Origin: Burkholderiales bacterium
Lineage (GTDB): Bacteria > Pseudomonadota > Gammaproteobacteria > Burkholderiales > SG8-41
Direction: 5' to 3'
DNA: 64,000 nucleotides
NCBI GenBank assembly: GCA_030684405.1
Contig: JAUXYA010000032.1
Span: forward strand, 302,764 to 366,763
The translations under genes and the position numbers were made by a program. Of this stretch, positions 26,082-28,608 are shown in pieces. Position 1 is the first letter of the stretch. Each line of letters begins with the position of its first letter. Below the pieces are notes generated by a model that saw nothing but the letters and a program-made list of their open reading frames with translations, did not search any database and was not told the origin of the DNA.

Positions 26082-26786
26082 ATGTCCAATCAAACGTCGA
26101 TGACAAACGAAAGTGACCACATTCGAATGCGCTATGTGGCATTTTGCGACGTCCTTGGGTTCGCTAATGCGGTTGAAAATCGTTTTGAGGAGACAATAGC
26201 GGTATATAAAGAGTTTATGGAGAAGATACGAGATTGGCCTATGCCGGAAAAGGCCGAAGTATCAATTTATTCAGACTCTATTTTAATAGTGGCTGATGAG
26301 TTAACGCCCGTTCTTCATGCGGTAAATCTTTTATGGTTTGCGACGCTTGGACAAAATTGGATGATTCGCGGTGGTATCGCTTACGGCCGTTATTGGGAGC
26401 GACGAGAAAACGGGAATCTATTTGTTGTTAGCGACGCACTTGTCCGAGCAGTCAAGCTTGAGGGGATGGCAAAGATGCCTGCAGTGACATTCTCGCCAGA
26501 GGTAGATTTGCACTTGGGCCTTTGGATGGCTCGCTTCGAACATGGGCTTTTCACCGCTCCGATCTTGCATTTTCAGGGGTTGTCGTTCGTAAATCCCTTT
26601 AATAATTTTTGGTTTACTTCAGCACGAACGCGCGCGACAGAGTTACTAAATCAGTTTCCAGAACATAAAGTAAAGTATTCGTGGTTCTTGGATTTGGCGG
26701 AAGCTGTGGAGCGCGATGAAGCTCTGATTCCTGACGCCGTTTTCCAGCGCGCAATTGAACTTGGGATTTTGGTTAAGCAGGTTTAG
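26082..26786 (+). CDS. hypothetical protein, class III nucleotidyl cyclase-like fold predicted
   Basis: VAFCDVLGF ... SIYSDSILIV ... WMIRGGIAYG pattern reminiscent of cyclase-homology domains; AT-rich relative to neighbours. Confidence 0.6.
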   Translation: MSNQTSMTNESDHIRMRYVAFCDVLGFANAVENRFEETIAVYKEFMEKIRDWPMPEKAEVSIYSDSILIVADELTPVLHAVNLLWFATLGQNWMIRGGIAYGRYWERRENGNLFVVSDALVRAVKLEGMAKMPAVTFSPEVDLHLGLWMARFEHGLFTAPILHFQGLSFVNPFNNFWFTSARTRATELLNQFPEHKVKYSWFLDLAEAVERDEALIPDAVFQRAIELGILVKQV

Positions 26787-26868: not shown

Positions 26869-27843
26869 CTAAATTTTCCCCTCCGCAACCAACCTGCGGT
26901 AATGCTCGCCCAACACGGTGAGCTTGCAGGCTTTACTGCCCATGGCCGCATGCCACATATGCTGCGCACCATCCGGCTCAACTAGATTCACGCGGACGTA
27001 GTTCTGGAGGATTGCGAACTTGACTGTGTTCACCGGGTCGGGCGGTGGAATTGACGGATCGGGCGGTGTCGGGCGCTCTGGCTCGAAAGTCGGGTCTAAC
27101 TTGAGCTCCGAAGTTCCAATCGGGAAAAGCTCCGCGAGCTTCTGAAGCTCACCGAGCGCAATGGGCGGTTGTACCGTCCGCAGCGACACAAACCGTTTCA
27201 CGTTGGTCTTGAACACTGGTCGCTGTTGCCACGGCCCTAACGATTGATCGATGTAAGCGTAAACACTGCCCGGCGTAATCGCACCGATCAGGTTGCGGGC
27301 CGCCCCCGTTAGTGCATCAATGAACAACGTCGTGAAAACTCCCGACCCGTTCTTTTCCGAAGCATACTGCGTGTCCGTCGAAGCCGTGAGAATGGTCATG
27401 CCGTCGGTTAGCTCCGACATGGTGGTTGCTGTCGGCTTTGCGCCAGCGATGCCGGAGTGGCAGCTGTCGAGGACGATGATCTTGTTCTTGGCATGCGATT
27501 TGGCCGCAAACGTCATCACATCGCCAAGCGCCAAACCGTCATCGCCCTTGGAGTCGCTTCCTAAGAGGTAGCCGCCGGTTTCGTCAAGGTGCCCGTGACC
27601 GGCGAAATAAAACAGCGCGATATCGCTGTCCCCTTCGAACAATTCCCGAACTTTATTCCGCAGCGATTCTCTCGTGACCGCCGCGTTAGCCCCGGTCCCC
27701 GCAAGAAGTTCGACGGCAAAGTTCACGGTGCCGTCGCCGTTGCGTTCCAATATGGCTTTGACACCGTGCGCGTCGTTGACGCAGCCGTACAGCGCGGGAC
27801 CGTGCTTATAGAAATCAATCCCGACCACGAGAGCTTTTTTCAT
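26869..27843 (-). CDS. caspase-like (peptidase C14) protein with Pro-rich linker and small C-terminal domain
   Basis: [32 protein letters not shown]; catalytic His YFAGHGH and Cys VLDSCHSG. Confidence 0.93.
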
Positions 27844-27849
27844 GGGCGC

Positions 27850-28239
27850 TTACCGTTGCCCAGCGATTAGCTTTTTAAGATTGTCCCAGGTCCACTGGTA
27901 GATCTTGTCCGTGGCCTTTACCGACGTGGGGGCAGTGCACGTTTTGTCAGAGTATGCGGCCAAGCAAAAGTAGGGAGTCCCCTTCGCTTGAGCGAGGGAC
28001 ACTTCAGCGGCAACGCCAGCAGCGGTGTGCGTTTTCGTGCCGCACAGGACAATCATCACATTCACGTTGTCGAGCCGACGACCAACCTTCGTTTTCCAAT
28101 CACCAGTCAGATGATCCTTCACCGAGGCGTCGCTGAAATCGAACGGACTATCTGGCAGTTTTGCCTGCCCTGCTAGCATGATCTTTGCGCCTTCGTCATT
28201 GTCGTAATCAAAGCTTATGAACGCTCTTGTTTTTGCCAT
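27850..28239 (-). CDS. TIR-like domain protein (MTH538/DUF1863, ThsB-type)
   Basis: RAFISFDYDNDEGAKIML...DWKTKVGRRLDNVNVMIVLCGTKTHTAAGVAAEVSLAQAKGTPYFCL; GAGGGG RBS; 6-nt gap to the caspase ATG. Confidence 0.88.
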   Translation of the reverse strand: MAKTRAFISFDYDNDEGAKIMLAGQAKLPDSPFDFSDASVKDHLTGDWKTKVGRRLDNVNVMIVLCGTKTHTAAGVAAEVSLAQAKGTPYFCLAAYSDKTCTAPTSVKATDKIYQWTWDNLKKLIAGQR

Positions 28240-28433: not shown

Positions 28434-28514
28434 ATGGCTGAAAACGAGAAAGCCGGAGATCCACCACCACCACCGCCCGACACGGACGGAATTGTTAGAC
28501 GAAATGGGGGCTGA
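28434..28514 (+). CDS. Polyproline microprotein 1 (26 aa)
   Basis: MAENEKAGDPPPPPPDTDGIVRRNGG*; GAGG(TGAGGT)ATG ribosome-binding site; paralogous to the next ORF; absent from the supplied ORF track. Confidence 0.65.
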   Translation: MAENEKAGDPPPPPPDTDGIVRRNGG

Positions 28515-28515
28515 A

Positions 28516-28608
28516 ATGACTGAACGCGCAACCGCTGAAACCCCATCACCGTCCCCACCACCGCCACCGCCGCCTGACACGAGCGGCGTTGTGCGGAAGG
28601 GCCGTTAG
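28516..28608 (+). CDS. Polyproline microprotein 2 (30 aa)
   Basis: MTERATAETPSPSPPPPPPPDTSGVVRKGR*; start 1 nt after the upstream stop (TGAAATG); shared C-terminal motif. Confidence 0.62.
   Translation: MTERATAETPSPSPPPPPPPDTSGVVRKGR

Follow-up and report, generated by a model that had tools for sequence, protein, structure and literature searches.

Two short genes for polyproline microproteins very probably stand in tandem beside a TIR-caspase gene pair in the window, the stretch of 64,000 nucleotides (64 kb) analyzed here, and proline-rich microproteins are linked to TIR-caspase pairs in four arrangements, that of the window included. Our reading, to which we give a probability of about 0.5 as a whole, is that the microproteins would be disordered regulators, adopting a polyproline (PPII) conformation, of a neighboring small membrane protein with three transmembrane segments (3-TM), an effector that the TIR-caspase pair would release.

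A TIR-caspase cassette with two microproteins

Table 1. Features of the cassette, numbered from the first nucleotide of the window.
Feature	Position	Strand	Remarks
Variable cargo segment	26800-29377		Low GC, 0.533 vs about 0.63 nearby
Caspase-like protease, 324 aa	26869-27843	-	PF00656, E 1.2e-17
ThsB-type TIR protein, 129 aa	27850-28239	-	PF08937, E 9.3e-8
Microprotein 1, polyproline, 26 aa	28434-28514	+	P6 tract, then DTDGIVRRNGG; GAGG(T) 6 nt upstream of the ATG
Microprotein 2, polyproline, 30 aa	28516-28608	+	P7 tract, then DTSGVVRKGR; paralogue of microprotein 1
3-TM membrane protein, 170 aa	28605-29117	-	TM 42-60, 77-95 and 151-169 by hydropathy

The cassette occupies a variable segment of the genome (Table 1). 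Congeners retain the flanks at about 90% identity with other cargo between them: two Ser/Thr kinases and a PP2C phosphatase stand at the same site in one (G687), and different genes in another (G1048). A cargo hotspot of the genus lies between the conserved ORF at 26082-26786, or sua5, and tctC (2041-5729 in L234 and 1636-3783 in L236). That ORF, on the plus strand, encodes a 234-aa protein that is conserved in G687, matches nothing in Pfam, PADLOC or NCBIfam, and begins with a stretch (MRYVAFCDVLGF...IYSDSILI) that looks cyclase-like by eye.

The catalytic Glu78 of the TIR protein is invariant among eight homologues, and the His83/Cys128 dyad of the caspase is invariant in its homologues, in which the C-terminal domain is also conserved. 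Along its whole length the caspase shares 57% identity with the caspases of a P2-like prophage module (L162/L163). In type IV Thoeris, N7-cADPR made by a TIR protein activates a caspase-like protease, according to Rousset et al. (2025) as cited in PMC12847820 and PMC13373217. The window resembles this system, from its genes alone, in having a ThsB-type TIR protein adjacent to a caspase-like protease with conserved catalytic residues, but differs in adding the microproteins and the 3-TM protein.

The first-pass annotation had described two microprotein ORFs next to the TIR-caspase pair, and it was right about their place, both genes of the pair lying on the minus strand at 26869-28239, as well as about their sequences (MAENEKAGDPPPPPPDTDGIVRRNGG for microprotein 1 and MTERATAETPSPSPPPPPPPDTSGVVRKGR for microprotein 2, each ending at a stop codon), their strand, the GAGG motif and the single nucleotide between the first stop and the second start. 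An in-frame ATG at 28504 is an alternative start for microprotein 2, four codons longer (MGAEMTERAT...), from which it would overlap the end of microprotein 1, stop included, by 11 nt.

Are these two ORFs genes? No other ORF of 20-50 aa in the 64 kb has at least five consecutive prolines, and within 2.07 Mb of fetched sequence tandem pairs of short ORFs with five prolines occur only in the window and in two further loci (L216 and L222), which had entered that set through an unrelated membrane-protein search. Over 14 aligned codons, microproteins 1 and 2 differ by about 8.5 synonymous and about 4.5 non-synonymous changes, a bias that leans toward coding and is weak on its own. Non-coding or chance proline-rich repeats would sit comfortably with the absence of any match to a sigma-70-type promoter or an intrinsic terminator around the microproteins and with an exact tail motif absent elsewhere; this explanation is nonetheless very improbable, since it must also account for the sole such pair in 64 kb, with a Shine-Dalgarno sequence, for a tandem pair of the same type in an independent TIR-caspase locus (L165) and for the synonymous bias. 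Judged from sequence, the earlier claim of real coding holds, and both ORFs are in all probability genes.

The tail consensus common to the two copies, which had been proposed as a signature to be sought in other systems, is not shared elsewhere, and the search suggested for it came out negative. Six-frame searches with the pattern PPPPD[TS]xG[IV][IV]R gave no match in IMG/VR and, among 369 class genomes, only that in the source genome; the 13 matches from 84,980 species genomes are on the antisense strand, in the wrong frame or in unrelated sequence, and none is a true homologue; the shorter PPPPPDTxG occurs in one further place among 399 genomes of the order. With no other in-frame occurrence in a short ORF, the motif is a local paralogue signature. 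A similar tail, PPPPPDTGGITKKGL, ends a protein of an IMG/VR phage (L026, 968-1270), which is a common phage protein of the YRKKP type matched by 712 phage records; it was set aside as a relative, the similarity being possibly coincidental, because its neighbors include neither a TIR-caspase pair nor a TM partner. A diglycine tail of the ubiquitin-like kind was also rejected, since only microprotein 1 ends in GG.

Microproteins at other TIR-caspase loci

About 38 distinct TIR-caspase loci were collected from plasmids, IMG/VR, phage records and related genomes, duplicate fetches being merged, and proline-rich microproteins were found at six of them besides the window (L160-L163, L165 and L183). 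In the P2-like prophages L160-L163, the TIR protein, the caspase, a 3-TM protein and a microprotein form one tight operon. The microprotein there has the sequence MxQKPPPPPPPPTR[NA]VRG[DN]VRPPPPPP..., is preceded by AGGAG 8-10 nt upstream, and is followed directly after its stop by a GC-rich hairpin and a T tract, seen by inspection. In L165, from another genome of the order, tandem proline-rich microproteins (MSNCADNPIPQPQPLKKDDSPPVRK and MADKPNPIPQPAPSRRDYVKDSPRPVPTAPSQPPPSKK) stand directly 3′ of the caspase gene with gaps of 0-2 nt, and a separate 3-TM gene converges on the pair. In L183, a SLATT-like 2-TM gene, preceded by MSEPVFRSHRPPRPMPPPPPPPPPPPPPPPSR, converges on the TIR-caspase pair.

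Most TIR-caspase loci examined have no proline-rich microprotein and carry instead a second TIR gene or a small, weakly RyR-like protein. The second TIR gene lies 3′ of the caspase in L200, L207, L210, L006, L007 and L010. The weakly RyR-like protein, of about 90 aa (IEHERWAHWQ...), is encoded by a third gene just after the caspase in L196, L197, L202-L205 and L209; of two tested, that of L203 matches the RyR domain with E 0.0025 and that of L196 does not, and it is possibly a constant accessory of many TIR-caspase loci. At about 3440-4465 of L156, on the minus strand, genes that appear by eye to be SLOG-like and SLATT-like (2-TM) lie by the TIR-caspase pair.

A membrane protein family with adjoining microproteins

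Relatives of the 3-TM protein of L163 (A7; 19-93% identity to L163) occur in P2-like and other prophages and in plasmids of P. syringae, Photobacterium and Vibrio; a search of class genomes and phage records yielded no further useful members. At all 17 intact family loci examined, a proline-rich microprotein lies right 3′ of the TM gene, overlaps it or is fused to it, against a chance background in which a short ORF with five prolines is near about 1.1% of random positions. A TIR-caspase pair is also present at only 4 of the 17, and the membrane protein and microprotein stand without one in L213, L214 and L219-L221, P2-like prophage loci of the sort that elsewhere bears such a pair. Each family locus has one to three microproteins, in tandem arrays of three (L224, L226/L227) or two copies (L222, L216). 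In L216, L217 and L222, a microprotein-like tail is fused to the C-terminus of the TM protein, and L216 and L222 have a free microprotein besides.

Between the two prophage copies in L163 and L220, the 27 codons of the microprotein differ by 17 synonymous and no non-synonymous changes, which at the level of sequence is a clear sign of purifying selection. Most copies have 6-9 consecutive prolines, and those of L226/L227 and L165 are proline-rich without a long run. After the prolines, Rx[VILA][RKF] is found in 12 of 16 non-redundant family copies against 1.2 expected when the non-proline residues are shuffled, although the pattern was defined post hoc on the same sequences and its probability is thus no test; in its strict form it is absent from the peptides of the window, L165 and L183, the window having only G[IV]VR[RK]. 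What the copies conserve is a high proline content and a short basic tail; long runs of proline are not part of it. This bears on the idea that the runs stall ribosomes in an EF-P-dependent manner, so that the ORFs would serve as translation sensors and not as sources of proteins. The 6-9 consecutive prolines of most copies would suit such a role, but copies without a long run have remained proline-rich (L226/L227, L165), which favors PPII-type binding over stalling, and residues beyond the run are conserved at the protein level. Since long runs are not a conserved feature, stalling was rejected as a general explanation, and we consider it scarcely credible.

That the microproteins always adjoin the membrane protein gene, and are in places fused to it, makes the membrane protein their likeliest partner. 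Their small size, tandem copies and fusions are compatible with a role in regulating or inhibiting a membrane effector. The first-pass suggestion of small antitoxins for the membrane protein goes the same way: the comparative evidence, three fusions included, favors a partner of that protein, and an antitoxin-like action would belong to the mechanism proposed below. Another reading, also raised by that annotation, makes the microproteins dedicated substrates, inhibitors or activators of the caspase, that is, bait peptides, with the membrane protein a separate neighbor. The linkage to TIR-caspase in its four arrangements, the position of the L165 pair immediately after the caspase and apart from the TM gene, and candidate Arg/Lys sites in the microprotein tails would all be in keeping with it. 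This reading is unlikely, because in L213-L227 the microproteins follow TM genes with no caspase nearby and because it is the TM protein that the fusions join; the claim of caspase cleavage in particular is not supported, as most TIR-caspase loci are without microproteins and most loci with a microprotein and membrane protein are without TIR-caspase.

How does the membrane protein of the window relate to this family? Its gene converges on the microprotein genes from the opposite strand, with an overlap of 4 nt. It matched no family in searches of Pfam, PADLOC and PHROG, and tblastn found no homologue in 299 genomes of the phylum, in plasmids or in IMG/VR. Alignment with the L163 family by hhalign gave a probability of 3.4% (E 0.013), and homology to that family was likewise not demonstrable for the membrane proteins of L165 and L183. 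The proteins of the window, L163 and L165 are nevertheless alike in size and TM layout, the segments of L163 being 28-46, 62-80 and 153-171 (compare Table 1), and the window locus has the anatomy of proline-rich microproteins (about 25-55 aa) adjoining a small 3-TM gene. With the same size, layout and neighborhood but no demonstrable homology, the window is a locus of the same kind by anatomy only, and membership of its TM protein in the L163 family is not established from sequence. Its structure model is poor (pLDDT 52). The AlphaFold2 model of the L163 family is fair (pLDDT 81), with four helices, two of them long, and has no match in the PDB or among the viral structures of BFVD.

SLATT 2TM proteins are predicted to be nucleotide-responsive pore-forming effectors, sometimes found with TIR or other nucleotide-related effectors (PMC7159879). 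The window is similar in having a small helical membrane protein by TIR and caspase genes, and the L183 partner weakly matches a 2TM effector of PADLOC (E 0.026); the window and L163-family proteins differ in their third, C-terminal TM segment and in the polyproline microproteins, and neither matches the SLATT models in Pfam. The microproteins and their membrane partner belong to no Pfam or PADLOC family, and the partner matches only PHROG 36961, of unknown function, which recognizes L163-type proteins (E 9.6e-8) and not that of the window. A weak match of one L163-family member, L225, to Csx27, a type VI-B CRISPR-associated membrane protein (E 0.0047), is below any safe threshold.

A proposed mechanism and its meaning

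An outline of the proposed process is as follows: the microproteins would be disordered, PPII-helical partner or regulator subunits of the neighboring 3-TM protein, which is the likely effector and may damage or gate the membrane. The proline stretch and short basic tail would bind the membrane protein or its partners, most likely keeping it inactive. The sensor of infection would be the TIR protein, whose nucleotide signal would turn on the caspase-like protease. The caspase might act in parallel, remove the microprotein or process the membrane protein, and the freed effector would bring about abortive infection. The TIR-caspase pair would thus be an activation arm acquired by some cassettes. 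Binding, inhibition, toxicity, cleavage and phage defense are all steps that we infer. Some observations speak against the regulator model. In the window the microproteins and the TM gene lie on opposite strands, and a simple positive-inside reading would put the C-terminus of the TM protein outside the cytoplasm, a poor fit with fused tails that substitute for free cytosolic peptides. The same side of the balance holds the undemonstrated homology of the window, L165 and L183 membrane proteins to the family, the strict Rx[VILA][RKF] motif that their peptides do not have, and the many TIR-caspase loci, most of those examined, that are free of microproteins.

The microproteins and membrane protein might instead form a free-standing module, of a toxin-antitoxin-like or superinfection-exclusion kind, that merely shares a hotspot with TIR-caspase. 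Such a module would explain why the pairs stand alone at the P2-like prophage loci L213, L214 and L219-L221, and the site in the window is indeed a hotspot with unrelated cargo in relatives. We regard it as a doubtful though possible explanation, since the linkage to TIR-caspase is repeated in different gene orders and the four genes of L160-L163 share one tight operon.

Regulation of a membrane effector thus remains our preferred reading. Its broader form, in which proline-rich microproteins are a new class of membrane-effector regulators that in TIR-caspase cassettes couple nucleotide signaling and proteolysis to membrane disruption, is put forward tentatively. The TIR-caspase pair is already known, whereas the wider microprotein class would be new if its function were shown; a literature search, which covered few subscription journals, found no paper on polyproline microproteins in phage defense. 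Genes of 25-50 codons escape most annotation, and a component of immune cassettes may therefore have been overlooked. Similar modules can be sought by a simple rule: proline-rich microproteins, often in tandem, adjoining small multi-TM genes. If gating downstream of TIR/caspase signaling proves true, type IV Thoeris would gain a membrane arm, and bacteria would have a minimal counterpart of the pore formation that caspases trigger.
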